Origin: Actinomycetospora sp. TBRC 11914
GTDB lineage: Bacteria > Actinomycetota > Actinomycetes > Mycobacteriales > Pseudonocardiaceae
DNA length: 64,000 nucleotides
Assembly (NCBI RefSeq): GCF_012933465.1
Contig: NZ_JABBND010000011.1
Location: 1-64,000 of the forward strand
Direction: 5' to 3'
Positions 9,158-63,306 of the stretch are shown piece after piece (within the stretch, counting starts at the first letter, position 1; every line of letters starts with the position of its first letter). Both the position numbers and the translations under genes were made by a program. The notes below the pieces were generated by a model. That model did not search any database and had not been told where the DNA came from. It saw only the letters and a program-made list of their open reading frames with translations.

Positions 9158-9456
9158 GGCGCAGGGTTCCCTGCTGATCTCACGAGCACCCCCGCCACAC
9201 GTCGGGATGCTGAACCCGCGGCTGCAGATCAGGCGTCACCTCCGAGCGGGTGTTCACGGCCCACCACGACGGCTGATTGCTCGATCAGCGTGAGCACCTG
9301 GTGGCGCCCGTCGGAGGTCTGCGGGGGCCGCTACCGATAGCGCGGCACGAGTCCCTGGCGCTGTGCTTGTCACGACGAGGACGCTACGGGCGATAGACCC
9401 GACGGGACCGGTACCTCGCACCGACGACGGTCCTCGTGTGCTGATGATCGGCAACC
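9158..9456. other. Intergenic stretch without recognised gene
   Basis: About 300 nt between the small minus-strand frame and the hypothetical gene at 9457. I see no convincing frame on either strand, no clear promoter and no RNA gene. It presumably holds the promoter of the downstream gene. Confidence 0.4.
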
Positions 9457-29588: not shown

Positions 29589-30041
29589 TCAGGCGAGCGC
29601 CTCCGCGGCGCGTGCGACCCCCGGCCGCGGGCCCCCGGCGCCGGGCGCCACGAGGACGTCCTTCTCCGTGCGGACACGAGCCGAGGGGTCGCGCTCGGCC
29701 TCGGGCGACGGCGGCCCGGGACGGCGAGGGAGCCGCTCCTCCGCGGCGACCAGCGCGTGGTAGGCGTCCCAGTACGCGCGGGTGGCCAGGTACGCGCACG
29801 CGGTGCGGACGGCACACAGACCCGGGTGCTCGACGCCGGGAGACGCCCACGGACCGGGCGTCAGGAGGGCGACCTCGCGGCGCAGGCGCGCTTCGAGAGC
29901 ACCCGAGGTGACCTCGGGATGCGGGGTCCGGAGGTCGTTGAGCAACTGCAGTCCCCGCGGGATCGCGGCGGCCAGCGTGGGCAGGCCGCCACCGTTCGGC
30001 CTCGCGCCGGTCTCGATCCCCGGGTTCTCGGGCTGCGACAT
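29589..30041 (-). CDS. Hypothetical protein
   Basis: 150 residues from ATG 30041 (MSQPENPGIETG...), with GAGGAG about 10 nt upstream; the frame is open to 30083. The middle (RGLQLLNDLRTPHPEVTSGA, then CAVRTACAYLATRAYWDAYH) is helical, and the final 40 residues are Pro/Arg/Glu-rich. No motif is recognised. It is divergent from the UbiX/UbiD operon, with a CTA-N7-TAG motif between them, so it may share control with that operon. Confidence 0.6.
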   Translation of the reverse strand: MSQPENPGIETGARPNGGGLPTLAAAIPRGLQLLNDLRTPHPEVTSGALEARLRREVALLTPGPWASPGVEHPGLCAVRTACAYLATRAYWDAYHALVAAEERLPRRPGPPSPEAERDPSARVRTEKDVLVAPGAGGPRPGVARAAEALA

Positions 30042-30114
30042 CGACAGAGCCTCCTCGCTCTCCGCGGGGCGACACGTCGGCACACTCGGTTGACGGCCAC
30101 TCCGGTACCCCCTA

Positions 30115-30131
30115 ATCTACAGACTTTAGAT
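30115..30131. promoter_or_regulatory. CTA-N7-TAG motif, copy 1 (upstream of ubiX)
   Basis: ATCTA-N7-TAGAT, the most symmetrical of the six copies, 70 nt upstream of the ubiX start and 73 nt upstream of the divergent hypothetical gene. Read on the minus strand it is TCTAAAGTCTGTAG. Symmetry and position suggest an operator rather than a promoter box. Confidence 0.6.
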
Positions 30132-30201
30132 AACAGGTCAATGGTCGACTCCGCCATCGGCCGTCGCCGACACGCGCACGGCATCCGCCCGAGGAGCTCG
30201 C

Positions 30202-30789
30202 ATGCCAACCACGGGAGCGAGCCGGACCGATACCCGCCGGCTGGTCGTCGGGGTGTCGGGCTCCAGCGCGCCCCAGCTCGCCCATGCGCTCCTCCGCGCG
30301 ACCAGCGTGCTCGAGCGGGTCGAGACGCACCTGGTCGTCAGCGAGGGGGCGGGCGAGTCCATCAAGCACGAGATGGGGCTCTCGGTCGGCGACTTCGAGC
30401 GCCTGGCCGACGTGGTGCACGACCCCCGTGATCTCGCGGCCCCGATCTCGTCCGGCTCGTTCCGCACCGCCGGGATGACGGTGGTGCCGTGCTCGATGAA
30501 GACCCTCGCGGCGGTCGCCACCGGGTTCACCGGGGACCTGGTCGCCCGGGCGGCGGACGTGTGCCTCAAGGAGCGCCGCCGGCTGGTCCTGGTCACGCGG
30601 GAGACCCCGCTCAACCTCGTCCACATCCGCAACATGGAGACGGTGACCCTGGCCGGGGCGACCGTGCTGCCGCCGGTCCCGGCCTTCTACCACCGGCCCG
30701 AGTCCATCGACGACCTGCTCGACCAGACCGTCGGCAAGGTCCTCGACCAGTTCGACATCGAGCACGACCTGTTCCGGCGGTGGGCGTGA
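30202..30789 (+). CDS. ubiX: UbiX-family flavin prenyltransferase
   Basis: 195 residues. The N-terminal RRLVVGVSGSSAPQLAHALL, the middle AGMTVVPCSMKTLAAVATGF, and LVLVTRETPLNLVHIRNMET with the TVLPPVPAFYHRP segment are diagnostic for UbiX. UbiX prenylates reduced FMN to make prenyl-FMN, the cofactor of UbiD decarboxylases; the partner UbiD gene is two genes downstream. GAGGAG precedes the ATG. The short basic N-terminal extension (residues 1-12) is unremarkable. The operon corresponds to vdc-type aromatic acid decarboxylase clusters. Confidence 0.92.
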   Translation: MPTTGASRTDTRRLVVGVSGSSAPQLAHALLRATSVLERVETHLVVSEGAGESIKHEMGLSVGDFERLADVVHDPRDLAAPISSGSFRTAGMTVVPCSMKTLAAVATGFTGDLVARAADVCLKERRRLVLVTRETPLNLVHIRNMETVTLAGATVLPPVPAFYHRPESIDDLLDQTVGKVLDQFDIEHDLFRRWA

Positions 30790-31247
30790 AGGTCCCCGAC
30801 GAGGTGATCGAGGCGGTGGCGGGCGTCCCCGTCGTCGGCGAGCACGACCTGGTCCTCCCCCTCGTCACGGTGGGCCCGCACGGGCATCCCCACGTGTGCC
30901 TCCTCGGTCGCGCCGAGCTCGAGGCCGAACCGGACGCGGTCCACGCGGTCGTCGCGGGCTCCCGCACGCAGGCCAACCTCCGGGAGCGCGGGCAGGCCGG
31001 GCTCGTCGTCCTCACGCCCTTCGCCGCGATCGACCTCGCGCTCGACGTCGTCGCGCTCGGCGAGGACCCCCGGTGGCTGCCGGTGAGCTTCGCGGTGGCC
31101 TCCGCGGACGTCGTGGCCGTCGGGCCGGAGTGGGGGGCACCGCTGGAACCGGCCCGGTTCCTGGTCACCGACCAGGTCGTCGCCGCGGAGGACTGGCCGC
31201 GGGCACAGCGGGTGCTCGCGGCACTGCGAGAGGGGAAGCGAACGTGA
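30786..31247 (+). CDS. Flavin-binding split-barrel (PNPOx-like) protein between UbiX and UbiD
   Basis: 153 residues with a GTG start overlapping the ubiX stop (GTGA), and its stop overlapping the ubiD GTG. The alternating hydrophobic strands (LVLPLVTVGPHGHPHVCLLG, then GLVVLTPFAAIDLALDVVAL) fit the pyridoxamine-5'-phosphate-oxidase-like FMN-binding split barrel. Small accessory genes accompany many UbiD operons (vdcD, for example), but this fold differs. It may bind, deliver or oxidise the prenyl-FMN cofactor, or act on the product; both ideas are inference. Confidence 0.7.
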   Translation: MKVPDEVIEAVAGVPVVGEHDLVLPLVTVGPHGHPHVCLLGRAELEAEPDAVHAVVAGSRTQANLRERGQAGLVVLTPFAAIDLALDVVALGEDPRWLPVSFAVASADVVAVGPEWGAPLEPARFLVTDQVVAAEDWPRAQRVLAALREGKRT

Positions 31248-32734
31248 CAGTTGCGCGTGCGTCGGGCACCGGTCTCCACCACCTGCGCTCGATCGACGAG
31301 TACCTCGCGGCGCTCGCGGCGCACGACGACGTCCTGGAGATCGACGACCCCGTCGACCTCCACCTCGAGGCCGCGGCCGGCATCCGGTACGCCTTCGAGC
31401 ACGACCTCCCGGCGCTGGTCTACAGCAACCTGGTCGGCCACCCGGGGTACCGCCTCATGGGTGGGCTGGCGCCCTACTCCTCCGACCCCCGGCACCGCTA
31501 CGCCCGGGTCGCCGTCGCGCTCGGACTGCCGTGGGAGACCCACCCCCTCGAGATCGTGGACCGCATGGCCGCGATCGACGCCGAGAAGGATCTGGTGCCG
31601 CCGGTCGTCGTCCCCGACCGGAGCGGCCGGGTCCTGCTGCCCGAGGTCGACCTGTTCGCGATCCCCTCACCGCGGCTGCACGAGGGCGACGGGGGCGACT
31701 ACCTCAACTCGATCGGGACGATGATCGCCCGCACGCCCGACGGTTCCTGGACGAACTGGCACGTCTGCCGGGTGATGCGGCTCGACGCCCGACGGCTGAC
31801 GATCTGGACCCGTCCCTTCCAGCACTTCGGGATGATCTACTCGAAGTGGCGCAAGCTCGGTGAGCCGATGCCGTTCGCCCTCGCGCTCACCCCCGAGCCG
31901 GCGGCGACCGTCCTGTCCGGGCTGCGTGCGCCCGACTTCGTCGACGAGGCCGCGTTCCTCGGCGGCTGGTTCGGCGAGCCCCTGGAGGTCACGCGCGCCC
32001 ACTCGGTCGACCTGGACGTGCCGGCCACCGCGCAGGTCGTGATCGAGGGGTACGTCCAGCCCGAGGACCGGGCCGCCGAGGGCCCCTTCGGCGAGTTCCA
32101 CGGCTACCTCATCCCCGGCGAGCAGGACCACGAGCTCGTCGGGGAGGTCACCGCGATCTCGGCGGTGCCGCGGCCCCTCCTCGGCGCCGTCCCGGCTGGG
32201 AAGCCGGTCGACGACGACCACACCCTCAACCAGCTCGGCCAGTCCGTCCTGCAGCGCCGCGCGCTGCGCGACGCCGGGCTCCCCGTGGACCAGGTCTGGC
32301 TCAACCCCGAGGGGGCCAACCACTTCGCGGTGGTCACCGTCCGGCCGGGGTGGTCCTCGGAGGTGGCGGGAGGCTCCGCCGAGCTCGTCCGGACCATCGC
32401 CGAGACCATGCTGACGCGGTGTGCGGCGACCGCGATCCTGACGCGCGTCCTCGTCGTGGAGAACGACGTCGACCCCACCGCACTGCGCGACGTCCTGTGG
32501 GCCCTCGCCACCCGTGTCCGTCCCGGGAGCGACCACGTCGTCAAGAGCCGCGTGATCTTCAACCTCTCGCCGATCTTCACCCCGGAGGAGCGCGCGGCCC
32601 ACCACGGTCCGCTGACCTTCCACAACGGGTTGATCGAGGACGCGGCCACCCCGGCGATCCCGTCGACCTTCGAGTCGGTCTACCCGGAAGCGGTCAAGCA
32701 GCGCATCGCGACGCTGTTGGCGAAGCACCTCTGA
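31244..32734 (+). CDS. UbiD-family prenyl-FMN-dependent decarboxylase
   Basis: 496 residues, typical length. Key blocks are LEIDDPVDLHLEAAAGIRYA, GDYLNSIGTMIARTPDGSW (metal-site segment), WNWH-like TNWHVCRVMRL, FALALTPEPAATVLSGL, and EGPFGEFHGYLIPGEQDHE carrying one of the conserved Glu residues. UbiD enzymes reversibly (de)carboxylate aromatic or unsaturated acids using prenyl-FMN made by UbiX. The GTG start overlaps the preceding stop. Substrate class (phenolic acid, protocatechuate-like) is suggested only by analogy to vdc clusters. Confidence 0.92.
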   Translation: MTVARASGTGLHHLRSIDEYLAALAAHDDVLEIDDPVDLHLEAAAGIRYAFEHDLPALVYSNLVGHPGYRLMGGLAPYSSDPRHRYARVAVALGLPWETHPLEIVDRMAAIDAEKDLVPPVVVPDRSGRVLLPEVDLFAIPSPRLHEGDGGDYLNSIGTMIARTPDGSWTNWHVCRVMRLDARRLTIWTRPFQHFGMIYSKWRKLGEPMPFALALTPEPAATVLSGLRAPDFVDEAAFLGGWFGEPLEVTRAHSVDLDVPATAQVVIEGYVQPEDRAAEGPFGEFHGYLIPGEQDHELVGEVTAISAVPRPLLGAVPAGKPVDDDHTLNQLGQSVLQRRALRDAGLPVDQVWLNPEGANHFAVVTVRPGWSSEVAGGSAELVRTIAETMLTRCAATAILTRVLVVENDVDPTALRDVLWALATRVRPGSDHVVKSRVIFNLSPIFTPEERAAHHGPLTFHNGLIEDAATPAIPSTFESVYPEAVKQRIATLLAKHL

Positions 32735-32919
32735 AACGGGCCGAAATTCGGTGGCATGACCTCGGAAGTGTCGCCGGGCGAGATCGGTCGGTTCGGAGGA
32801 TCTCGGGCCGGGTATCACGAACTCGAAACGGAGCGTGCGAGGTCGGGACACGACCCGGAGCCCCCGGATTCGACGACCTCGCGACAATCGTTCCGCTCCC
32901 TCGCCAGAGAGGCAATTCC

Positions 32920-33177
32920 ATGGAAGCCACTGCCCGTATCCGTGCCGGCATCACGGCCATCGTGCTCGCCCTCGTGGTGGCCGGGGTGGGCCTGGTCAGC
33001 AGCGGCTCCGGGGGCTCGACCACCAGCTCGCAGGGCCTGGGGTGGCCGATCTTCGTGGGAGCCGTCCTGCTCGTCCTCGGGGTGGCGGCGCTGGTGTCCG
33101 GGCTCCGGAACCGCCGGCACGAGCGGCGGACCGCGAGCTCGATCCCCGGCCTGGAGGACGAGCGCACGAAGGACTGA
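32920..33177 (+). CDS. Small membrane protein with two TM helices
   Basis: 85 residues. A short N-terminus is followed by a hydrophobic helix (ITAIVLALVVAGVGLVSSGS), a Ser/Gly loop, a second helix (WPIFVGAVLLVLGVAALVSG) and a charged tail. AGAGAGG lies 8 nt upstream of the ATG. No known function. It comes 185 nt after ubiD and may be its last, loosely linked partner; a terminator hairpin follows. Confidence 0.65.
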   Translation: MEATARIRAGITAIVLALVVAGVGLVSSGSGGSTTSSQGLGWPIFVGAVLLVLGVAALVSGLRNRRHERRTASSIPGLEDERTKD

Positions 33178-33184
33178 ACCGCGC

Positions 33185-33216
33185 GTGGCCGACCCGGCGT
33201 GAGCCGGGCCGGCCAC
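33185..33216. terminator. Bidirectional terminator hairpin
   Basis: A 14-bp stem with a single mismatch (arms 33185-33198 and 33203-33216) and a GTGA loop sits between the stops of two convergent genes, the small membrane protein and the P450. No U-tract is seen, as is common in actinomycetes. Confidence 0.7.
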
Positions 33217-33222
33217 CGCCGG

Positions 33223-34494
33223 TCACGCCGCGGGAGCCTGCGCCTCCGCCGTGAACTCCAGGGGCAGCACCGCGACCCCACGCACCTGACTGGCGTGCGA
33301 GATCGGCGGGTTGTCCGCCTCGAGGCGGTAGTCCGGGATCCGCTGATGGATCTCCGCGAGGGCGATGGCGAGCTCCACCCGGGCCAGGTGGGAGCCCAGG
33401 CACCGGTGCGGTCCGGCGCCGAACGAGAGGTGCCGGTTCGGCGACCGGTCGAGCTGCAGCTCGGTCGGTGCGTCGAACTGTGACGGGTCGCGGTTGACGC
33501 CGGAGAGGATCACGACCATCTGGTCGCCCTCCTTCAGGTGCACGCCGCCGAGGTCGACGTCCTTCGTGGCGCGGCGGCCCATCGAGATCGCCGCCTCGAT
33601 GCGCAGCAGCTCCTCGACCGCCTGCGGGATCGACTCCGGGTCGTCGATGATGCGCTGCCGCTGCTCCGGACGCTCCGCGAGGTACATCATGCTCCAGGCG
33701 AGCGTCCCCTGGACGGTGTGCAGACCGGCGATGAGCAGCAGGAAGAACATGCTGAAGAGCTCGGGGTCGGTGAGCAGCCGTTCCTCACAGTCGATCTCGA
33801 TGGGCGTGTTCATGACGGCCGAGGTGACGTCCTGCTCGGGGTCGAGCGTCTCGGCGCGCCGCTTCGCGACCACCTCGCCGAAGTACCCGTAGAGCCGCTG
33901 TCCGGCCTCAGCCTTGGCCGCATCGGACTCCTCATCGGTGGCACCTGGCTTGCCGACGAGGATGGTGTCGACGCTCTCGGTGAACATCGGGGCGTCCTCG
34001 ACCGGCCACCCCATCAGCGCGAGGAACATCTGGGTGGGCAGCTCGTGCGCGAACTCGGAGATGAACTCGCAGCGGCCCCGACCGGCGAACCCGTCGAGGA
34101 GCTTCCCCGTGAGCTCGCGGATCTTCGGCTCCAGCTCGCGCATCCGCTTCGGGTTGAACAGCGGCTGGAGCGCGTGGCGGAACGCGGTGTGCTGCGGCGG
34201 GTCGATCTCGAGCGGGATGAACCGGTCGGTCCCCTGCTGGAGCAGGTTGTTGGGGAAGCTCGAGAAGGTCTGCGCGTCACGGAGCACCGCGTGGGCCTCC
34301 TCGTAGCCCGTGACGATCCAGTGGCCGCCGTGGGCCGTCGAGTAGACGACCGGCCCCTTCGCCCGCAGCGCCGACACCTTCTCGGGCACCTGGTCGACGG
34401 GGCCGGCGTTCGACTGGTCGTGGATGTCGAAGTCGACGACGAGGTGCTCAGGGACCTGGTCGACGGTCGTCGCCATCGTGTACCGCTTCGACAC
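33223..34494 (-). CDS. Cytochrome P450 with atypical I-helix (AGLHTV)
   Basis: 423 residues from a GTG at 34494 with AGAGGAG 6 nt upstream; the frame is open further, but this start has the best ribosome site. The haem motif is FGAGPHRCLG with Cys365, and E295-L-L-R298 is present. The I-helix oxygen-activation motif, usually AG-x-D/E-T, reads AGLHT (residues 256-260), with His in place of the acid. Partner ferredoxin and reductase genes are absent from the window. A CTA-N7-TAG motif lies about 160 nt upstream. Confidence 0.9.
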   Translation of the reverse strand: MSKRYTMATTVDQVPEHLVVDFDIHDQSNAGPVDQVPEKVSALRAKGPVVYSTAHGGHWIVTGYEEAHAVLRDAQTFSSFPNNLLQQGTDRFIPLEIDPPQHTAFRHALQPLFNPKRMRELEPKIRELTGKLLDGFAGRGRCEFISEFAHELPTQMFLALMGWPVEDAPMFTESVDTILVGKPGATDEESDAAKAEAGQRLYGYFGEVVAKRRAETLDPEQDVTSAVMNTPIEIDCEERLLTDPELFSMFFLLLIAGLHTVQGTLAWSMMYLAERPEQRQRIIDDPESIPQAVEELLRIEAAISMGRRATKDVDLGGVHLKEGDQMVVILSGVNRDPSQFDAPTELQLDRSPNRHLSFGAGPHRCLGSHLARVELAIALAEIHQRIPDYRLEADNPPISHASQVRGVAVLPLEFTAEAQAPAA

Positions 34495-34650
34495 GAGAAC
34501 TCCTCTCGGCAGAGCGATCCCGCTCGCGTGGACGTGGTCCGATGCCGGGGCCGCCGGGGCGGCCGCATCGCGCGTGGTGGACGTGGCGCGGAGCGCGGGG
34601 CTCCCCGCCACAGCTCACGGTGAGCCCTCCGACCCTCACTGTGAGCGAAA

Positions 34651-34663
34651 CTATAGTCGTTAG
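34651..34663. promoter_or_regulatory. CTA-N7-TAG motif, copy 2 (upstream of P450)
   Basis: CTATAGTCGTTAG on the plus strand, TCTAACGACTATAG on the other, about 157 nt upstream of the P450 GTG start. It is flanked by AT-rich bases on both sides. Confidence 0.55.
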
Positions 34664-34856
34664 ATAAAGCGTGTCAACGGTCACTCGGACCGCCTCGATC
34701 CACGGCGGCCACCGGCATGCCAACCGGCCGCACGTGCCCGCGTGGAGGCAGGGTCACGAGCGGCCTCCACGGTGAGGGGACGGACGGAGCAGCGACCGCC
34801 GGAGTGGCTCAGAGGCTCCGACCCCCTCCAACGAGGCGGGCCGCCGAGCGATGCGC

Positions 34857-34869
34857 CTAAATCTGTTAG
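34857..34869. promoter_or_regulatory. CTA-N7-TAG motif, copy 3
   Basis: CCTAAATCTGTTAG within the same intergenic region, about 150 nt upstream of the small protein at 35016. On the opposite strand it reads CTAACAGATTTAG, almost identical to copy 4 (CTAACAGGTTTAG). Confidence 0.55.
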
Positions 34870-34928
34870 TCCTCTCGGCGCCGGAGCCGGGGCCTGGGTG
34901 TGATCACGCCGTAGTTACTCCACACGGC

Positions 34929-34964
34929 GTATACCGAATCGTTACCTAGAGTTTTAAGGTATAC
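34929..34964. repeat. Inverted repeat GTATACC-N22-GGTATAC
   Basis: Perfect 7-bp arms at 34929-34935 and 34958-34964 separated by 22 nt, about 50 nt upstream of the gene at 35016. The spacer itself contains the smaller inverted pair TACCT/AGGTA. It could be an operator for an additional regulator. Confidence 0.4.
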
Positions 34965-35015
34965 GTCTCGGCCATGGCGGCCGACGATTCTTGATCGACG
35001 ACGAGGCGGTCTGCG

Positions 35016-35303
35016 ATGTTCGATCATCGCCCCACACCGGCACGATCTCGGGCTCCGCGACGCCCGTCCCCGGCCGTTCGGGACGAGCACCCGCGACCGG
35101 CGGCCCGTTGCGGGATCTGCGGTCAACGGCTCCACCGCTGCTTCACCGCGGGAGGAGCGGAGGTGCTCGTGGACCCGATGCCGCGATTCGGCGGCGACCT
35201 CCTGGTCAACCCGCACAATGCGCTGATCGTCGCGGTGCTGCCGCCCGGCCGGCGTCGCGACGTCGCGTACTGCGCCCACCGCGCCGTCTGCCCAGCCATG
35301 TGA
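35016..35303 (+). CDS. Small Cys-containing protein, possible metal-binding
   Basis: 95 residues. The first 30 are Arg/Pro-rich; then comes RCGICGQRLHRCFTAGGAEV with a CxxC plus a further Cys, and the C-terminus ends YCAHRAVCPAM with two more Cys. The Cys spacing suggests a small zinc-binding fold. No family is recognised. Its stop codon lies inside a 20-bp hairpin that probably terminates transcription from both sides. Confidence 0.6.
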   Translation: MFDHRPTPARSRAPRRPSPAVRDEHPRPAARCGICGQRLHRCFTAGGAEVLVDPMPRFGGDLLVNPHNALIVAVLPPGRRRDVAYCAHRAVCPAM

Positions 35304-35342
35304 ACGGATGTGGTCGCCTGGACGACCACATCCGTTCACATG
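35297..35342. terminator. Perfect 20-bp-stem hairpin between convergent reading frames
   Basis: Arms 35297-35316 and 35323-35342 are perfectly complementary with a 6-nt CCTGGA loop. Each arm contains the GCC-ATG-TGA end of one convergent gene, so the structure is symmetrical down to the stop codons. It probably served as the shared terminator of the small Cys protein and an intact CoA-transferase gene, now broken. Confidence 0.7.
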
Positions 35343-35632
35343 GCGCCGGAGGCGACCAGCGCGGCGATGTCGGCGGGGTCCCACCCGGCCTCGGCGAGCA
35401 CCTCCGCGCCGTGCTCGCCGAGCCGGGGCGCGCCGCGGACCGGGAGTGCGCCGGCCCCGTCGACGATCACCGGCAGCCGCGGCAGCACCATGCGGCCCTC
35501 GCTCGGGTGCTCCACCGGCTCGAAGAGCCCGACGGCGGCGAGGTGCGGGTCGGCGAGCAGGTCGTCCGCGGTCAGGACCGGCTGGGCGGGGATGCCGGCG
35601 GTCCCGAGCGCGGCGAGCCACTCGTCGGACCA
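35336..35632 (-). pseudogene. C-terminal fragment of a family III CoA-transferase
   Basis: Reading on the minus strand from about 35632 to the TGA at 35336 gives DEWLAALGTAGIPAQPVLTA, then LLADPHLAAVGLFEPVEHPS and a REGAPRLGEHGAEVL-like end. This is the last 95-100 residues of a CaiB/BaiF-type CoA-transferase. No start codon or N-terminal part precedes it on this strand. The matching N-terminal sequence lies immediately next to it on the other strand. Confidence 0.75.
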
Positions 35633-36068
35633 GCACGTTCATGGGGCCCTACGCGACGATACTGCTGGCCCGGATGGGCGCCGACGTGATCAAGGTCGAA
35701 TCGCCCGACGGCGACGTCGTCCGCCACATCGGCCCGGGACGCCACCTCGCGATGGGCCCGATCTTCCTGGCGGCCAACCACGACAAGCGCAGCATCGCGC
35801 TCGACCTCAAGCACCCCGACGGCCGGCGCGCGCTGGACTCGCTGATCGGGACCGCGGACGTCATCGTCACCAAACCTGCGGCCCGCGGCCCTCGACCGCC
35901 TCGGGCTCACGGCCTAGTAGGTGCTGCTCGCGGCCCACACCCGACTGGTGTTCGCGACGCTGCCCGGGTTCGGCAGCGCCGGGCCGTACCGCGACCGGGC
36001 GGCCTGCGACGGCGTCATCCAGGCCGCCAGCGGTCTGGCCGCGGTCCAGGGCGGGACGGGGGAGCCCG
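35633..36068 (+). pseudogene. N-terminal fragment of a family III CoA-transferase, frameshifted and with stops
   Basis: The plus strand reads FMGPYATILLARMGADVIKV, then GPIFLAANHDKRSIALDLKH and SLIGTADVIVTK, the classic CoA-transferase N-terminal half. At about 35872 an extra A shifts the frame (expected TNLRPAALDRLGLT), after which two TAG codons in a row occur near 35915. The sequence then continues as RLVFATLPGFGSAGPYRDRA and AASGLAAVQGGTGEPG, where it breaks off. Together with the inverted C-terminal piece this looks like a single gene broken by inversion and then decaying. Confidence 0.8.
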
Positions 36069-36353
36069 GAGGTTCTGCCCTCCCGGACGACCAGGCTCGA
36101 CTGGGTCCGGGAGTGCTCCGTGCTCGGCACCCCGGACCCGCGCTGGGGCGAGGCCCTCGTTGCCGTCCTCGTGGGCGACCCGCCGTCCGACCCGACGGCG
36201 GCGGCCCGGGTCGCCGAGCAGCACTGCCGCGAGCACCTGGCCGACTACAAGGTGCCCCGCCGGTTCGTGTTCCGCGCCGCTCTCCCGAAGAGCCCCACCG
36301 GGAAGATCCTCCGTCGGGCCCTGCGCGAGGAGCTCACGCGTACCAATATCTAA
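36069..36353 (+). pseudogene. C-terminal fragment of an acyl-CoA ligase
   Basis: Starting around 36069-36105 the frame reads VRECSVLGTPDPRWGEALVA, later LADYKVPRRFVFRAALPKSP and TGKILRRALREEL before the TAA at 36351-36353. This is the final domain of an AMP-forming acyl-CoA synthetase, including the catalytic Lys of the PxxxTGK motif. The N-terminal 350-400 residues are missing, and it is joined directly to the CoA-transferase remnant. Its stop codon overlaps CTA-N7-TAG copy 4. Confidence 0.8.
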
Positions 36354-36362
36354 CAGGTTTAG
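36350..36362. promoter_or_regulatory. CTA-N7-TAG motif, copy 4 (upstream of SDR)
   Basis: TATCTAACAGGTTTAGTAT, 82 nt upstream of the SDR start, with extra symmetric AT bases on both flanks. It begins at the stop codon of the ligase remnant. Confidence 0.6.
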
Positions 36363-36443
36363 TATCCGCAGGTCGGAGCCCTTGTGGGCACGTCAGAGCG
36401 AGCGCTAGCGTCGGCGGGATCGCAGCGGACGGAAGGAGCGGAC

Positions 36444-37268
36444 ATGGGGCGTCTCGAGGACAAGGTCGTCTTCATCACGGGGGCAGCGCGCGGGCAGGGA
36501 CGCTCGCACGCGGTGCGGATGGCCGAAGAGGGCGCCTCGATCATCGCCGTCGACATCTGTGACCAGATCCCGACCGTGTTCTACCCGATGGCGACCCGGG
36601 ACGACCTCGACGAGACCGCGAACCTGGTCGAGAAGGCGGGCGGGCGCATCGTCACCCGCGTCGCGGACGTCCGCGACCGCAACGCCCTGCAGGGCGCGTT
36701 CGACGACGGGCTCGCCGAGTTCGGCCACGTCGACGTCGTGCTCCCGAACGCCGGGATCATGCCCGTCATCAACGAGGGCGAGCAGGAGCAGGCCTGGCAC
36801 GACGGCATCGCGACCCTGCTCACCGGGGTCTGGCAGACCATCGAGGTGGCCCTCCCCTCGATGCTGGAGCGCGGGCAGGGCGGCTCGATCCAGATCACCA
36901 GCTCCGCGGCGGGCCTGTCCAGCATGGCGCTGAACACCATCCCCGGCCAGGCGGCCTACGTCGCGGCCAAGCACGGCGTGGTCGGGCTGATGCGGCTCTA
37001 CGCCTCCCAGCTCGCGCCGCACTCCATCCGCGTCAACACCGTCCACCCCACCGGGGTGAACACCCCGATGGTGGCCAACGAGCAGTACGGCAAGTTCGCG
37101 ATGGAGTTCCCCGAGATCGCCGGGAGCCCGAAGTACCAGAACCCGATGCCGGTGCCGCTGATCGACCCCGTCGACGTCAGCAACGCGATGGTCTACCTCG
37201 CCTCCGACGAGGGCCGGTACGTCACCGGCGTGACCTTCCCGGTGGACGCGGGCTACCTGAACCGGTAG
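36444..37268 (+). CDS. Mycofactocin-coupled SDR family oxidoreductase (carveol-dehydrogenase-like)
   Basis: 274 residues. The N-terminal MGRLEDKVVFITGAARGQGR followed by SHAVRMAEEGASIIAVDICD is the hallmark of the mycofactocin-associated SDR group. An insert after the first Rossmann strands (IPTVFYPMATRDDLDETANL) is also typical. The catalytic Ser (ITSSAAG) and YVAAK are present. Such enzymes hold NAD tightly and pass electrons to mycofactocin, oxidising secondary alcohols such as terpenoids. GGAAGGAG precedes the ATG. Mycofactocin biosynthesis genes are not in the window. Confidence 0.9.
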   Translation: MGRLEDKVVFITGAARGQGRSHAVRMAEEGASIIAVDICDQIPTVFYPMATRDDLDETANLVEKAGGRIVTRVADVRDRNALQGAFDDGLAEFGHVDVVLPNAGIMPVINEGEQEQAWHDGIATLLTGVWQTIEVALPSMLERGQGGSIQITSSAAGLSSMALNTIPGQAAYVAAKHGVVGLMRLYASQLAPHSIRVNTVHPTGVNTPMVANEQYGKFAMEFPEIAGSPKYQNPMPVPLIDPVDVSNAMVYLASDEGRYVTGVTFPVDAGYLNR

Positions 37269-37357
37269 CGCTCCCCCGTGCGGGGCCCGGTTTGCTGCTC
37301 GAGGACCGTCGGGTAGACATCGACGTCTGCGCTTCCGTCGTCGTCGTGGGGGTCCCG

Positions 37358-38113
37358 ATGTGGTGGAACACCCTGATCGGCCAGGGCCTGGAACACGTCG
37401 GGCGAGCAACGGTCGGGCTGACCGGGTTGCGGCACCGCTCGGTCGGGGTCGACGAGGCCGTCGACGATCCCGGCTCGGGCCCGGTGGTCCTGATCGGCGG
37501 GTTCGGGGAGACGGCGCCCTGCCTGGCACCCATGACCAATTGGCTCACGCGGGTCGGCTACGACGCGAGGGCGTACACGCTGGGCGCCGGCATGGGCTGT
37601 TCGCAGCGCACGACGGTGTCCCTGGTGCGGCGCGTGCGTGCTCTCGCGGAAGAAGCCGGTGAACCGGTACGCGTCGTGGGGCACAGCCGGGGGGGACAGC
37701 TGGCCCGCGCGGTCGGCGCGGAAGCGCCGGAGTCGGTGTCCCACGTCGTCACCATCGGGACGCCGCTCGACATGAGCGGCACGACGCCGGCCATGGCCGC
37801 GATGCTGTGGGGGTTCGCGGCCGCCGGCACCATGGGAGTGCCCGGGCTGTACCGCCTGGGCTGCCTCACCGTCGGGGCGTGCTGCGCCGGCTTCCGCGAG
37901 GCGTTGCGGGCTCCGTGGCCTGCCCAGGTCGCGCTGACGAGCATCTACAGCCCGACCGACGCCGCGGTGTCCTGGCGGGCGTGCCATGTCCCGGGAGCCC
38001 GTAACGTCGAGGTGGCGTCCGGCCACGTCGCCCAGCTCACCGCCGCGCAGGTCCAGCGTGCGGTCGCGGCAGCGCTCGTCGCTGCGCCGGCCCCGGGCAC
38101 GGCGGCCGCCTGA
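37358..38113 (+). CDS. Alpha/beta hydrolase, lipase-like
   Basis: 251 residues from ATG 37358. Key features are the oxyanion segment VVLIGGFGETAPCLAPMTNW, the nucleophile elbow VVGHSRGGQLARAVG, SIYSPTDAAVSWRAC with the probable acid, and a late GHVAQL with the probable His. The layout resembles PGAP1/triacylglycerol-lipase-like proteins acting on esters. It follows the SDR by about 90 nt and may be co-transcribed. The substrate is unknown. Confidence 0.75.
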   Translation: MWWNTLIGQGLEHVGRATVGLTGLRHRSVGVDEAVDDPGSGPVVLIGGFGETAPCLAPMTNWLTRVGYDARAYTLGAGMGCSQRTTVSLVRRVRALAEEAGEPVRVVGHSRGGQLARAVGAEAPESVSHVVTIGTPLDMSGTTPAMAAMLWGFAAAGTMGVPGLYRLGCLTVGACCAGFREALRAPWPAQVALTSIYSPTDAAVSWRACHVPGARNVEVASGHVAQLTAAQVQRAVAAALVAAPAPGTAAA

Positions 38114-38252
38114 GGGATTCCTCAGGGAAGCGCTGAGCAGCCCCGGGTCTTCGGGAAATCCTTCGTCGTCGATCCTTCTCCGCCGACCCCGTTGATCCGC
38201 GGTCGATCTCTCGACGGCGGATTCGTCGTCGGTCGGCCCGTCCCGACGCTAT

Positions 38253-38265
38253 CTAAATCTTGTAG
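38253..38265. promoter_or_regulatory. CTA-N7-TAG motif, copy 5 (overlaps a possible -10 box)
   Basis: CTATCTAAATCTTGTAG ends 9 nt before the GTG at 38275. The trailing TAGTCT (38263-38268) would place a transcription start at the GTG itself, suggesting a leaderless mRNA whose promoter is covered by the motif. Confidence 0.55.
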
Positions 38266-38274
38266 TCTGAACTC

Positions 38275-38559
38275 GTGCCGCCCTGGTCACCATGGGATCG
38301 AGTTCGCGCGGTGGCCGTGGACGAGTCCGCCGGCCCCGATCGACTGCTGGCAGCACTGGCCGCGGTGGACGCCGCGCACGAGCACATCGACCGGACGGAG
38401 GCCGACCTCCTGCGGCGAGCCCGGGCGGCGGGACTCACGTGGCGGGAGATCGCGCACGCCATGGGGCTCGGGTCGCCCCAGGCGGCCTCCCAACGTGCCC
38501 ATCGGCGCAGCGGTCACGGCCTCGCCCGGCCGGCGGTCGACGTGCCGGACGTCGGCTGA
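38275..38559 (+). CDS. Small helix-turn-helix-like protein
   Basis: 94 residues with a GTG start; GTG 38311 is an alternative. The middle is helical (DRLLAALAAVDAAHEHIDRT) and LLRRARAAGLTWREIAHAMG, then LGSPQAASQRAHRR, has the form of an HTH with a recognition helix. No effector domain is visible. It could be a DNA-binding regulator using the CTA-N7-TAG site that covers its own promoter, but size and fold are also seen in non-regulatory proteins. Confidence 0.6.
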   Translation: MPPWSPWDRVRAVAVDESAGPDRLLAALAAVDAAHEHIDRTEADLLRRARAAGLTWREIAHAMGLGSPQAASQRAHRRSGHGLARPAVDVPDVG

Positions 38560-38575
38560 CCGTCCCGGCGCGGGT

Positions 38576-40003
38576 TCAGCTGCGCAGGACCGGTGTGGAC
38601 GACTCCGGGCCGAGGGCGAGCACCTCCGCGAAACCCTCCTGCAGGCATCGCAGGAAGAGGTCCGGGTCGGCGATCGAGCGGGTATCGATGTTGATGCCGA
38701 CGTTGCAGACCCCGTCGTAGGTGACCATGGCGATCATGGCGGCGCACCCCGGGAGCGGCCCGAAGCCGTAGGTCCGCTCGATCCGGCTCCCGGCGAGGTA
38801 GGACTCGCGTTGCAGCCCCGGCACGTTGCTGGCCTGGAGGTCGTTGCTCTTGGCCAGTGATCCCGACAGCTGCGCGATCACCGGCGCGGGCAGCCGAGCC
38901 ATGACCGGCGAGAGGAGTCCGATGACGTCGACGGCGGGCTCGTCACGGGCCGCACGCACGATCTTCGCCACCTCGCCGATGCGCTTGGCGGCGTCGACGG
39001 TCGCGACCGGGCCCGGGATCTGGATCGTCGCGATCTTGTTGCCGCCGCCCTGGTCCTTGTCGGTGCGCAGCGAGACCGGCACCGTCGTCGGGATCGCGTC
39101 GACGGTGTCCTCGCCCAGTGCCTCGTGATACCGGCGGAACCCACCGAAGAGCGCGGCGAGGTAGGCGTCGTTGAGCGTGCCGCCGACCGACTTGGCGGCA
39201 GCCTTGAGCTCGGCGAGCCGGACGTCCAGCAGTGCCAACCGCCAGCTGTTGGAGCGCCGGGCCAGCACCGGCGAACCCGAGGCCTCGCACGGCGCGAGCA
39301 CGCGGTAGAGCGAGCCGGCGTAGTCCACTGCCGAGCGCACCGAGCCCACCGGGTCGGCGAGCAGCTCCGACGCCCCCTTCGCCACTCCGCGCAGGAGGCC
39401 GGGGACGGAGGCGACGTCATCGCGCACCATGTTCCGCAGCGCGTCCCAGGACGTCAGCGAGTGCAGGGGGGTCACCGGCGGGTGCGGCTTGTCGGGGTTG
39501 TGCTCGCGCCGGTCGGAGTGCAGCCGGTCGAGGAGCTGGATCAGCCCCATGCCGTCGGTCGTCGAGTGGTGCATCTTCAGGTAGAAGATCGCCCGCCCGT
39601 CGGGGAGACCGTCGAACAGCACGGCCTCCCACGGCGGCCGGTTGCGGTCGAGGGGCGACATCGACAGCTGGGCCATCGCCTCCAGCGCCTCGTGCCAACC
39701 CCCGCCCTCGGGGATCCGCTGCCGTCGCACGTGGTAGCGCAGGTCGAACAACGGATCATCGCTCCACTGCGGTGCTCCGAGCCCGAACGGTGCTTCCACC
39801 ACCTTCTGGCGGAAGCGCGGGACGATCTCGAGGGCCCACCTCATGGCGGCGAGGAAGCGGTCCCAGTCCGGGACGCTGTCGAGCTCCTCGATCATCATCG
39901 TCGTCATGATGAGCTCCGGATCGACCTCGGCCCGCCACATCGCTGCTTCGAACGGCGTCATGCGCTGTCCGGCCGCCCATGCCGTCGATCCCACCGTCGC
40001 CAC
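38576..40003 (-). CDS. WS/DGAT-family acyltransferase
   Basis: 475 residues from GTG 40003, preceded by GAGGC; GTG 39994 also fits. The active-site motif MHHSTTDGMG has His145, His146 and Asp150 of HHxxxDG, and the family opening MTPFEAAMWRAEVDP lies at residue 15. A C-terminal NVPG segment (DLQASNVPG) and NVGINIDTRSIADPD are present. These enzymes esterify fatty alcohols or diacylglycerol with acyl-CoA, making wax or triacylglycerol storage. Divergent from the esterase operon; a CTA-N7-TAG copy lies between them. Confidence 0.9.
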   Translation of the reverse strand: MATVGSTAWAAGQRMTPFEAAMWRAEVDPELIMTTMMIEELDSVPDWDRFLAAMRWALEIVPRFRQKVVEAPFGLGAPQWSDDPLFDLRYHVRRQRIPEGGGWHEALEAMAQLSMSPLDRNRPPWEAVLFDGLPDGRAIFYLKMHHSTTDGMGLIQLLDRLHSDRREHNPDKPHPPVTPLHSLTSWDALRNMVRDDVASVPGLLRGVAKGASELLADPVGSVRSAVDYAGSLYRVLAPCEASGSPVLARRSNSWRLALLDVRLAELKAAAKSVGGTLNDAYLAALFGGFRRYHEALGEDTVDAIPTTVPVSLRTDKDQGGGNKIATIQIPGPVATVDAAKRIGEVAKIVRAARDEPAVDVIGLLSPVMARLPAPVIAQLSGSLAKSNDLQASNVPGLQRESYLAGSRIERTYGFGPLPGCAAMIAMVTYDGVCNVGINIDTRSIADPDLFLRCLQEGFAEVLALGPESSTPVLRS

Positions 40004-40043
40004 CCCGCCTCGTCGAGCCTGACCGCGCTGATGACACCTTAAT

Positions 40044-40056
40044 CTAAATGGTGTAG
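40044..40056. promoter_or_regulatory. CTA-N7-TAG motif, copy 6 (between WS/DGAT and esterase operon)
   Basis: TAATCTAAATGGTGTAG in the 85-nt gap between the divergent genes, 33 nt from the esterase start and 41 nt from the acyltransferase start. One site could control both transcripts. Confidence 0.6.
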
Positions 40057-40088
40057 GCAGTGGGTGTCCACAACCGGAGGAGCCGACG

Positions 40089-41078
40089 ATGGCAACCGAC
40101 CCCGCCCCGCTCGTCATCGATCGACGCGGTCCGGCCAGCCTGCGCTCCCGGTTGCTCTACGGCGCCCTCGTCCCGCTGATGCGCCGGCCGCTGGCCGTGC
40201 TGCAGACGGCGCCGTTCGGGCCCGAGCTCATCGCCCGCGCCGCACGGATCGACGAGTGGGCGGCGCGGCTGCCCCCGCCCCGCGGGACCCGGGTCACGCC
40301 CGCCGTGTTCGGCGATTCCCGCGGGGAGTGGGTGCTCGGGCGCGGGGTCCACGCGAGCGACACCGCGATCCTCTACCTCCACGGCGGCGGGTGGTTCTTC
40401 GGTGGCCTGCACACCCACCGCTCGATGGTGTCGCGGCTGTCCTCCGCGTCGGGCGCGGTCGCGCTCTCGGTGGCGTACCGGATGGTCCCCGAGGTCACGC
40501 TCGACCGGGAGGTGGACGACTGCGTGACGGCCTTCCTCGGCCTGCTCGACTACGGGTTCGCCCCCGAGAACATCGCGATCATCGGGGACTCCGCCGGCGG
40601 TCACCTCGCGTTCGCGACGGCCCTGCGGCTCCGCGACTCGGGCCACCCGGTGCCCGGCACCGTGGTGAGCCTGTCCGGCTGCCTCGACTTCGATCTCGCC
40701 GCGAAGTGGCGCCACGAGAACGCGGGCCGGGACCCGCTGCGGGCGATGGCCGCGCTCGAGGTCCTCATGCACGGGGTCCTGGGCGATCTCGACCCCCGGG
40801 ATCCGGTGGTCTCCCCGCTCCACGCGGACCTCACGGGTCTGCCTGCGTCCCTGCTCGTGGCGGGGTCGACCGAGTCGGTGTACCTGGACTCCGAGGTCAT
40901 GGCGCAGCGGCTCTCCGAGGCCGGGGTGCCCGCGATCCTGCAGGTCTGGGACCGGCAGCTCCACGTGTTCCAGAGCCTCGTGCCGCTGGTGCCCGAAGCG
41001 GCCCGCTCGATCGCGGCCGTCGGCGAGCACCTGCGCGCCACACTCGGCCTGCGTCACGCCGACGACCTGGCCTCCTGA
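40089..41078 (+). CDS. HSL-family alpha/beta hydrolase (esterase)
   Basis: 329 residues. The oxyanion-hole motif HGGGW (residues 98-102) and the nucleophile GDSAGG with Ser168 mark the hormone-sensitive-lipase group. A late DPRDPVVSPLH segment holds the probable Asp, and RQLHVFQSL the His. Members hydrolyse short-chain or steroid/terpenoid esters. GGAGGAGCC precedes the ATG. First gene of a six-gene operon running to 45049. Confidence 0.88.
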   Translation: MATDPAPLVIDRRGPASLRSRLLYGALVPLMRRPLAVLQTAPFGPELIARAARIDEWAARLPPPRGTRVTPAVFGDSRGEWVLGRGVHASDTAILYLHGGGWFFGGLHTHRSMVSRLSSASGAVALSVAYRMVPEVTLDREVDDCVTAFLGLLDYGFAPENIAIIGDSAGGHLAFATALRLRDSGHPVPGTVVSLSGCLDFDLAAKWRHENAGRDPLRAMAALEVLMHGVLGDLDPRDPVVSPLHADLTGLPASLLVAGSTESVYLDSEVMAQRLSEAGVPAILQVWDRQLHVFQSLVPLVPEAARSIAAVGEHLRATLGLRHADDLAS

Positions 41079-48219: not shown

Positions 48220-48864
48220 ATGAGCGCCCTGCGCGAGCGGAAGAAGGCGGCGCTGCGCGGAACGATCGTGCGGTGTGCGGTGGAGCTCTTCGTGGAGCGC
48301 GGGTACGACGCGGTGAGCATGGAGGACATCGCCACGACGGCGATGTGCTCCCGGAGCACGCTGAACCGGTACTTCGGGACGAAGGAGGACGTCCTCTTCG
48401 ACTCGACCACCGAGATCACCGAGCACCTGCGCGAGCAGCTGCGCCACACCGACGGCCCCGACCGGTGGGCCCTGGCCCGGGATGCGGTGACCGCGCACCT
48501 GGCCGAGTTCTTCGAGAACGTCGAGTCGGACCTGCGCGTGGACATCATGCAGCTCTGGTTCAGCGAGCCCGCCCTGCTCCGCCGGTATCTCTCGATCGTC
48601 TACGAATGGGAGACCATCCTGCGGGAGTTCTTCTCGGCCGGGTTGCCGCGCAGCCCGGGCACCCGCCTGCGCGTCGAACTGCTGGCCACCGCGATGTCCT
48701 CGGCCCTGCGGGCGGCCACGACCACCGCCCTCGACTTCGACGGTGACGCCGCGGTACTGACCGCCGAGGCCTTCGAGTACCTCGAGCACGGTCTTCCCAC
48801 CCTCCCCGGGGACGTCGATGTGTCCCCGGGTGCCGGCCGGGCGGATCCCCGATTCGCCGTCTGA
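48220..48864 (+). CDS. TetR-family regulator, divergent from orphan oxidase-subunit operon
   Basis: 214 residues: TIVRCAVELFVERGYDAVSM, EDIATTAMCSRSTLNRYFGT, KEDVLFDST mark the DNA-binding domain; the rest is a helical ligand domain (FFENVESDLRVDIMQLWFSE). Start ATG 48220. The adjacent palindrome and divergent arrangement suggest repression of the membrane-protein operon. Ligand unknown. Confidence 0.87.
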   Translation: MSALRERKKAALRGTIVRCAVELFVERGYDAVSMEDIATTAMCSRSTLNRYFGTKEDVLFDSTTEITEHLREQLRHTDGPDRWALARDAVTAHLAEFFENVESDLRVDIMQLWFSEPALLRRYLSIVYEWETILREFFSAGLPRSPGTRLRVELLATAMSSALRAATTTALDFDGDAAVLTAEAFEYLEHGLPTLPGDVDVSPGAGRADPRFAV

Positions 48865-62574: not shown

Positions 62575-63171
62575 TCACGACACCAGGGCCGGGACCACGA
62601 AGTCCGCGACGAGCCGGCGGATGCGCTTCTCGTCGTCGGGGGTGTCCTGGAGCTGGACGATGAACATGATCTCCAGCCGGGAGATCCACTCGCACAGCCC
62701 GTCGAGGTCGACGTCCCCGCGGATCTCGCCCGCCTCCTGCGCCGCGACGAGGATCGGCTCCCAGAACTCCCGGGTGAGCTCGATCGAGAGCCCGGTCGGC
62801 CCCAGGAGGCTGTTCGCGAGCGCCATCTGCTCGGGCGAGACCAGGGCGCGGATCAGCGGATCGCGGTGACCGACCCGGACGTTGCGGCTGATCCCCTCCA
62901 CCATCCGGTCGGTCAGGGAGCCGAGCGCCATGATCCGGTCGCGGTTGCGCGCCAGGTTCTGCCGCGCCCGGCGGCGGACCAGGGCGATCAACAGGCTCTC
63001 CCGGTCCGAGAAGGTCCGGTACAGCGTCGCCCGGGAGATCGCGGCGGCCGAGGCGACGTCCTCCATCGTGGTCTTCGCGATCCCGTAGTAGGTGAAGCAG
63101 GAGTCCGCCGCGTCCAGGATCCGCTCCTCGGCGGAGGCCCGGCGAGGCGCCGGGGTGGGTCGCGCGGGCAC
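62575..63171 (-). CDS. TetR-family regulator
   Basis: 198 residues with GTG start. HTH: RILDAADSCFTYYGIAKTTM, EDVASAAAISRATLYRTFSD; then a helical domain. It is convergent with the ligase at 61015 and likely binds the 29-bp elements at 60.8-61.0 kb, since it is the nearest regulator. That link is inference. Confidence 0.85.
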   Translation of the reverse strand: MPARPTPAPRRASAEERILDAADSCFTYYGIAKTTMEDVASAAAISRATLYRTFSDRESLLIALVRRRARQNLARNRDRIMALGSLTDRMVEGISRNVRVGHRDPLIRALVSPEQMALANSLLGPTGLSIELTREFWEPILVAAQEAGEIRGDVDLDGLCEWISRLEIMFIVQLQDTPDDEKRIRRLVADFVVPALVS

Positions 63172-63262
63172 GCATCGACCCTATCCGAGCGTCCTCACCG
63201 CCAGCGGTCGTCGATGCCGGACGCGCTCGTCACCTGGCGGGGAGCCGTCGACGGGATTTAAC

Positions 63263-63275
63263 CTAAAGGCTGTCG
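63263..63275. promoter_or_regulatory. Degenerate copy of the CTA-N7-TAG motif
   Basis: CCTAAAGGCTGTCG, matching the six-copy consensus at all defined positions except TAG to TCG. About 30 nt upstream of the molybdopterin oxidoreductase start, in a short AT-rich patch. Confidence 0.35.
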
Positions 63276-63306
63276 GTACAAGCGGAACCTGCCGGGGGGA
63301 ACCGTG

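Follow-up and report, generated by a model that had tools for sequence, protein, structure and literature searches.

A predicted tetracycline-repressor-like operator and its candidate regulator in a catabolic island of Actinomycetospora sp. TBRC 11914

A CTA-N7-TAG motif recurs between the genes of a 64,000-nucleotide stretch of Actinomycetospora sp. TBRC 11914 (hereafter the window), the first 64 kb of the 215 kb contig NZ_JABBND010000011.1 (hereafter C3), which makes up 3.3% of a 6.52 Mb genome (G000) in 63 contigs. Sequence comparison makes it probable, in our view, that a TetR-family repressor belonging to the tetracycline-repressor subfamily uses this motif as its operator. The most likely candidate is the 211-residue protein whose gene, at C3:78885-79520, lies about 15 kb to the right of where the window ends. 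On a broader proposal we are evenly divided: that this repressor is the master switch of a ~17-operator regulon for an undescribed Mce-linked oxidative pathway, and that an operator code applies in which operator position 2 is determined by residue 28 (Arg or not) and position 3 by residue 38, in a near-constant CTA-N7-TAG frame.

The element and its concentration on one contig

All six copies that the initial annotation had picked out between positions 30,115 and 40,056 are present to within one base: YCTAAMNNNNNTAG matched the window six times (shuffle mean 0.05, maximum 1 in 100 shuffles), and five copies also fit the stricter YCTAAMNNNTNTAG, as had been stated (five window matches, shuffle mean 0.00). 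Judged by crude open reading frame (ORF) calls, which underlie all placements given here, every copy lies outside intact genes, the one at 40043 falling within an ORF that was called too long and probably starts at 40021. The copies had further been described as AT-rich islands sharing an inverted-repeat core. The former holds for five of the six (54-bp stretches, 48-59% GC) and fails for the copy at 34856 (70% GC); a dyad is indeed present, but it is imperfect, with only 4 to 7 of 9 dyad positions matching. No common sequence was seen in the flanks of the copies.

Scatter across the genome, named beforehand as an outcome that would speak against a regulon, was not what we found. YCTAAMNNNNNTAG occurs 11 times genome-wide, with ten copies on this one contig of 63, and the reversed pattern occurs three times; the strict pattern has eight copies in the genome, every one of them on C3, against a single copy in 17 other genomes of the genus taken together. 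In a first loose genome-wide count, 21 of 78 rows were on C3, yet the reversed control was far bigger (350+323 vs 40+38), and with another loose pattern the reversed control exceeded the pattern in four of four genomes. Loose counting was uninformative, and we therefore used only the placing of hits and matrix counts with shuffles.

A symmetric matrix built from ten C3 sites and four Pseudonocardia eucalypti sites describes the full element as an imperfect 17-19 bp dyad, about AYCTAAANNNTTTAGRT. At a score of 18 or more, which we call strong, C3 holds 17 separate places, ten of them training sites, and the contig read backwards holds one. Two of the 17 (34943-34961 and 63260-63278) are extra window sites outside the original pattern. 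Nor were sites mainly intragenic, the other contrary outcome named in advance: 15 of the 17 lie outside ORF calls, and the remaining two, at 40041 and 109877, are in over-extended calls upstream of likely starts. The distance from site to called gene varied, roughly 4-205 bp. Fair scores outside C3 (21.1 on C56, 17.9 on C45) belonged to sites inside called ORFs and were set aside. Besides the six copies, the window has one more CTA-N7-TAG, at 9384-9396 (CTACGGGCGATAG), which scores below 9 in the matrix.

Right of the window, C3 sites stand before genes for acyl-coenzyme A (CoA) dehydrogenase (71949, by Pfam), a Rieske oxygenase (83640, by PDB matches), a group with a short-chain dehydrogenase/reductase (SDR) and ferredoxin (85905, by eye), an SDR (99119, by eye), an acyl-CoA dehydrogenase (Pfam) and an aldehyde dehydrogenase (by eye; both 107408), a CoA ligase (109877, by eye), an enoyl-CoA hydratase (Pfam) and an SDR (by eye; both 173945), a ferredoxin reductase (174776, Pfam) and a ferredoxin (176633, gene 176290, Pfam). 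A second matrix, trained on the six window copies alone and with counts given as matches/shuffle mean, gave 14/0.52 on C3 right of the window (12 separate places), 0/0.02 in 1-30000 and 1/0.07 in 40100-64000.

Applied to other genomes, the six-site matrix gave 8/0.18 in G273 and 9/0.93 in G354, from stretches that were picked, like those of G137, G144, G298 and G158, by TetR homology and not by motif. Counts in these last four were at or near background (4/1.95; 2/0.70 and 2/1.03; 2/0.57; and 1/0.98, respectively). G044 gave 8/0.32 on contig C340 and 1/0.07 on contig C699, and P. eucalypti gave 4/0.42, with none of the four matches inside ORFs; these stretches are less independent because they were picked after motif matches had been seen there. 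Many foreign sites precede homologues of C3 enzymes. For example, the orthologue of the SDR at window 36444 has an upstream site in A. endophytica (L088:9948, score 18.6) and in G273 (18.8). This recurrence in front of related enzymes elsewhere is most simply read as the work of one regulator, and the earlier idea of one regulator for a coherent set of oxidation and storage genes is supported on sequence. The regulon has grown beyond the six copies first proposed, and its likely regulator is outside the window. In A. endophytica (C13), a strong site (25.6) at L149:6924 also stands 50 bp before a small membrane protein that by eye resembles window 32921-33178; no site was found before the window copy.

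A candidate regulator and a residue-base correspondence

The protein at C3:78885-79520 has a TetR_N helix-turn-helix (HTH) domain (PF00440, E=2.2e-11, 43.8 bits vs a cut-off of 24), and its AlphaFold2 model (10 helices, mean pLDDT 84.5) has an all-helical fold of about ten helices, as in the TetR family. Among solved sequences it comes closest to tetracycline repressors of classes D and B, one of them from the operator complex 1qpi; the match to TetR class D (E=2.7e-16) aligns residues 9-202 of 211. Homologues at E <= 6.4e-45 occur in 6 of 25 genomes (G000, G043, G041, G273, G044 and G354), and sites were seen in all six. Among the other 19 genomes the best match was 1.2e-20, and nine had no match at 1e-12.

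We ran a clade profile built from eight candidate-like proteins over 397 genomes of the order, scoring up to seven first-look candidates in each. It found at least 14 places in at least 10 genomes at E <= 3.8e-62, the next place being at 3.6e-38 among the matches listed. Seven of these genomes had not figured among the regulator loci before, and at four of them none of 100 shuffles reached the count of the six-site matrix (G064 6/0.08, G256 4/0.77, G359 2/0.10 and G078 2/0.07). Four of six lower-scoring control TetR loci were not above shuffles (G206b 1/0.32, reached by 26 of 100; G059, G359b and G166 with 0). A site scoring at least 12 lies upstream of the regulator's own gene for 8 of 17 clade regulators.

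The tetracycline repressor itself supplies a structural frame for comparison. An excerpt of PMC4575469 gives tetO as CTATCA-N-TGATAG, which has the CTA-N7-TAG frame in common with the motif here. In the TetR-tetO complex, as an excerpt of PMC7102968 describes it, Arg28 hydrogen-bonds G+2 and Gln38 hydrogen-bonds A+3, whereas Pro39, Thr40, Tyr42 and Trp43 touch bases through van der Waals contacts only. The candidate clade keeps the equivalents of Pro39-Ser/Thr40-Leu41-Tyr42 and His44 as Pro-Ser-Leu-Tyr-x-His, invariant in eight of eight aligned proteins. Arg28 and Gln38 are absent from all eight, the place of Arg28 being taken by Pro in six, Lys in one and Glu in one. The candidate has Pro at place 28 and Thr at 38, and its predicted operator differs from tetO at positions 2 and 3: the inner half-site is mostly AA, not TC, in keeping with the loss of Arg28 and Gln38.

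We extended this comparison to 43 relatives (17 clade, 26 other), taking as operator a symmetric upstream YTA-N7-TAR with 6 of 9 or more positions matching. Such an operator was present for 19 of the 43 (shuffle mean 0.2, largest 2). C stands at -2 in both halves for 14 of 14 Arg28 proteins vs none of the five without Arg28 (3 Pro, 2 Ser), which have A or T there, and the only Gln38 protein among the 19 has a tetO-like TC. At the 17 C3 sites, C occupies -2 in 5 of 34 half-sites. This covariation of residue 28 with operator position 2 is as the TetR-tetO structure predicts. A second operator type, ~CYCTAAC-N3-GTTAGRG, precedes Arg28 tetracycline-repressor-like genes elsewhere in the genus (L229-L231, L233-L238 and L241).

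Several observations weigh against the assignment to this regulator and against the code. Two clade loci are weak (G253 2/0.49, reached by 8 of 100 shuffles; G026 1/0.20, by 19 of 100), and the G206 clade member has no site in the 20 kb taken (0/0.17). Of the controls, whose TetRs fall below the clade gap, G175 (2/0.13) and G054 (4/0.05) exceed all shuffles, and 12 of 24 non-clade TetRs likewise score at least 12 upstream, with related palindromes of their own. In G000 the 300 bp upstream of the candidate itself contain no site, the only one (15.7) being downstream, and three other TetRs on C3 adjoin sites. Isolated strong palindromes stand beside other TetRs in G018 and G038, both without a close regulator homologue, and isolated strong sites also occur in G019 and G020, genomes outside the regulator search. 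Matches inside ORFs number 2 of 14 on C3, 3 of 8 in G273, 2 of 9 in G354 and 2 of 8 on C340 of G044. A loose symmetric pattern is in clear genome-wide excess in G000 (14 places vs 3 reversed) and in no other clade genome, and some excess appears in the non-clade genomes G118 (18 vs 10 reversed) and G016 (6 vs 2). As for the covariation, a single genus supplies 10 of the 14 Arg28 cases, the two Ser proteins among the five non-Arg28 cases were fetched by motif search, and in three clade sites that fall short of the symmetry cut one half carries C at -2.

The position of the sites would suit a repressor. Three sigma-70-like promoters emerged from a consensus scan of 29900-40300, against 0.2 expected, and all three overlap motif copies: TTGACC-N16-TAGATT at 30114..30141, TTGACA-N16-TATAGT at 34650..34677 (11/12, toward the cytochrome P450 gene) and TGGACA-N18-TAGATT at 40041..40070 (toward the wax ester synthase/diacylglycerol acyltransferase (WS/DGAT) gene), each on the minus strand. 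At 34650, the motif copy occupies the spacer between TTGACA and TATAGT, which is where a repressor would block polymerase.

What we observed is the sites, how they cluster, how they overlap promoter-like sequence and recur along with this protein, and the covariation of residue and base; binding by C3:78885, repression, inducer and substrate we infer. A dimer of the candidate would bind the AYCTAAANNNTTTAGRT dyad in the spacer and -10 region, blocking RNA polymerase, and would let go of the DNA in the presence of a metabolite of the pathway, possibly the imported substrate or a CoA thioester, whereupon about 17 predicted operators would become free at once. The predicted targets comprise redox proteins (P450, ferredoxin, ferredoxin reductase, Rieske oxygenase, mycofactocin SDR, other SDRs and aldehyde dehydrogenase) together with CoA ligase, acyl-CoA dehydrogenases, enoyl-CoA hydratase, UbiX/UbiD, WS/DGAT and esterase. 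Under repression by the candidate, the imported degradation pathway would probably be off until its substrate is present. TetR controls one divergent efflux gene. The system here would work like TetR/tetO, being of the same subfamily by sequence and with operators that overlap promoters in both. It would differ in its operator word and in having a distributed regulon, of many operators scattered over a catabolic island.

Rival regulators and other explanations

We think it unlikely that the operators belong instead to one or more of three paralogous A1-type TetRs on C3 (62575, 85931 and 98469). Each of these adjoins a site (63260 in the divergent gap of 62575; 85905 and 99119 flanking the other two), the best foreign site (29.4) stands upstream of an A1-type TetR in G273, and close A1 homologues are present in G273, G354 and G044. 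We first took them as the regulators and then demoted them, because the two distributions disagree in both directions: there are A1-type TetRs at loci with near-background motif counts, and there are motif sites in genomes for which no close A1 homologue is listed. The former is the case in G137, G144, G298 and G158 (E 1.1e-44 to 2.5e-36). The latter is the case in G256, G078, G359 and G026, which have sites yet fall outside the at least 37 of 397 genomes listed with an A1 match at E <= 1e-25 when up to eight first-look candidates per genome are scored, on the assumption that the A1 and clade listings cover the same 397 genomes. Moreover, among solved proteins A1 is most closely related to UidR and not to a tetracycline repressor.

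Two other candidates were rejected. An MftR-like TetR at window 48220-48864 reaches 61 bits vs a cut-off of 225 in the MftR model, and the MftR operator is mismatched; this gene has an MftR-type C-terminal domain (PF17754) and adjoins cytochrome-oxidase-like genes. A MerR gene beside the P. eucalypti sites has no BLAST match among called C3 genes.

Named regulators from related settings were also compared with the 17 strong sites. KstR and KstR2 are TetR-family repressors of actinobacterial steroid catabolism, with a large distributed regulon that includes Mce, P450 and CoA-dependent steps. They resemble the candidate in family and in the distributed catabolic regulon predicted for it. The full KstR consensus occurs in 0 of 17 sites and its core AACNNGTT in 1 of 17, and the 58 solved sequences listed as matches to the candidate do not include KstR. 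MftR is likewise of the TetR family, and a mycofactocin-coupled SDR is among the predicted targets here; the MftR operator, T-N2-GGCA-N5-TGCC-N2-A in an excerpt of PMC8728441, occurs in 0 of 17. AesR of Corynebacterium glutamicum has a similar CTA-N7-TAG geometry and belongs to another protein family, MarR; half of its consensus is CGACTA-N7-TAGTCG (excerpt of PMC13413800), and this full half occurs in 0 of 17. In the accessible portions of the openly licensed literature, we found no named regulator that pairs this operator with this protein, AesR alone having a similar geometry.

That the motif is part of an alternative-sigma-factor promoter, not an operator, strikes us as quite improbable. 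The sites do overlap -10-like hexamers, and TAGTCT-N6-GTG at 38250 resembles a leaderless start. Against this, the element tends to two-fold symmetry and often lies in divergent gaps, its distance to called genes varies over the range given above, and an ordinary -35 box accompanies three of the copies. That the copies arose by chance, or represent a repeated element with no regulatory role, is scarcely credible, even for a short motif chosen after the fact: six copies occur where 0.05 are expected, six-site counts exceed shuffles at TetR-chosen loci in other genomes, and the copies lack a common flanking sequence.

Window genes and the proposed pathway

Predicted operator 1 (30114..30132) lies in the gap between a minus-strand gene for a 164-residue protein (29589..30083, no Pfam match) and ubiX on the plus strand, overlapping the minus-strand promoter upstream of the former. 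The plus-strand genes that follow encode a UbiX-family flavin prenyltransferase (30202..30789; NF004685, above cut-off), a 153-residue protein (30786..31247; no Pfam or NCBIfam match) and a UbiD-like decarboxylase (31244..32734; TIGR00148, E=8.1e-55, 186 bits, below the cut-off of 245). Operator 2 (34648..34666) is upstream of the cytochrome P450 (33223..34494, minus strand, start assumed), whose nearest solved sequences are CYP125MRCA and P450cam. Operator 3 (34854..34872) is the weakest of the six, and the extra predicted operator at 34943..34961, which the initial annotation had not named, stands 55 bp before a small Cys-containing protein (35016..35303, plus strand, no Pfam match). At the end of the latter gene, 35297-35342 forms an inverted repeat with 20-bp arms, a 6-base loop and no T tract, possibly a terminator or processing hairpin. 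By eye, 35345-36340 holds decayed gene remnants, each interrupted: a CoA-transferase-like protein is represented by parts in different frames and strands, and a CoA-ligase-like protein by its end.

Operator 4 (36347..36365) is upstream of the mycofactocin-coupled SDR (36444..37268, plus strand; TIGR03971, above cut-off). In operator 5 (38250..38268), TAGTCT is followed after 6 nt by the GTG of a plus-strand gene for a 94-residue protein (38275..38559), HTH-like by eye and without a Pfam or NCBIfam match; a leaderless start of this gene within the region 38250-38275 is possible. Operator 6 (40041..40059) is in the divergent gap between WS/DGAT (38576..40021, minus strand; TIGR02946, above cut-off) and an alpha/beta-hydrolase, the esterase (40089..41078, plus strand; PF07859, with hormone-sensitive-lipase models matching below their cut-offs). 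The extra predicted operator at 63260..63278 is in another divergent gap, between the A1-type TetR rival (62575..63171, minus strand) and a plus-strand gene at 63304 that by eye resembles a molybdopterin oxidoreductase.

On the wider contig, an operon at C3:86532-98145 looks by eye like Mce import and has BLAST matches among similar G044 genes. Together with P450s, Rieske oxygenases, CoA ligases, CoA transferases, acyl-CoA dehydrogenases and thiolases, it suggests the breakdown of a hydrophobic compound, perhaps alicyclic or terpenoid-like. At E <= 1e-60, one genome out of 18 in the genus has the Rieske oxygenase, and the island looks accessory for that reason; a plasmid search with this enzyme returned 8 records, all proteobacterial and below 60% identity. 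The predicted targets resemble an accessory, Mce-linked pathway of oxidation and CoA chemistry, in which WS/DGAT and the esterase might store or release the pathway product.

Overall, our analyses turn an unnamed motif into a regulator-operator pair that is open to test, and give a computable regulon for a catabolic island for which we found no matching described pathway. The proposed regulon links UbiX/UbiD, P450, Rieske oxygenase and mycofactocin SDR, which position alone would not group. If the covariation between residue and base holds more widely, the operators of this repressor subfamily could become predictable from protein sequence.

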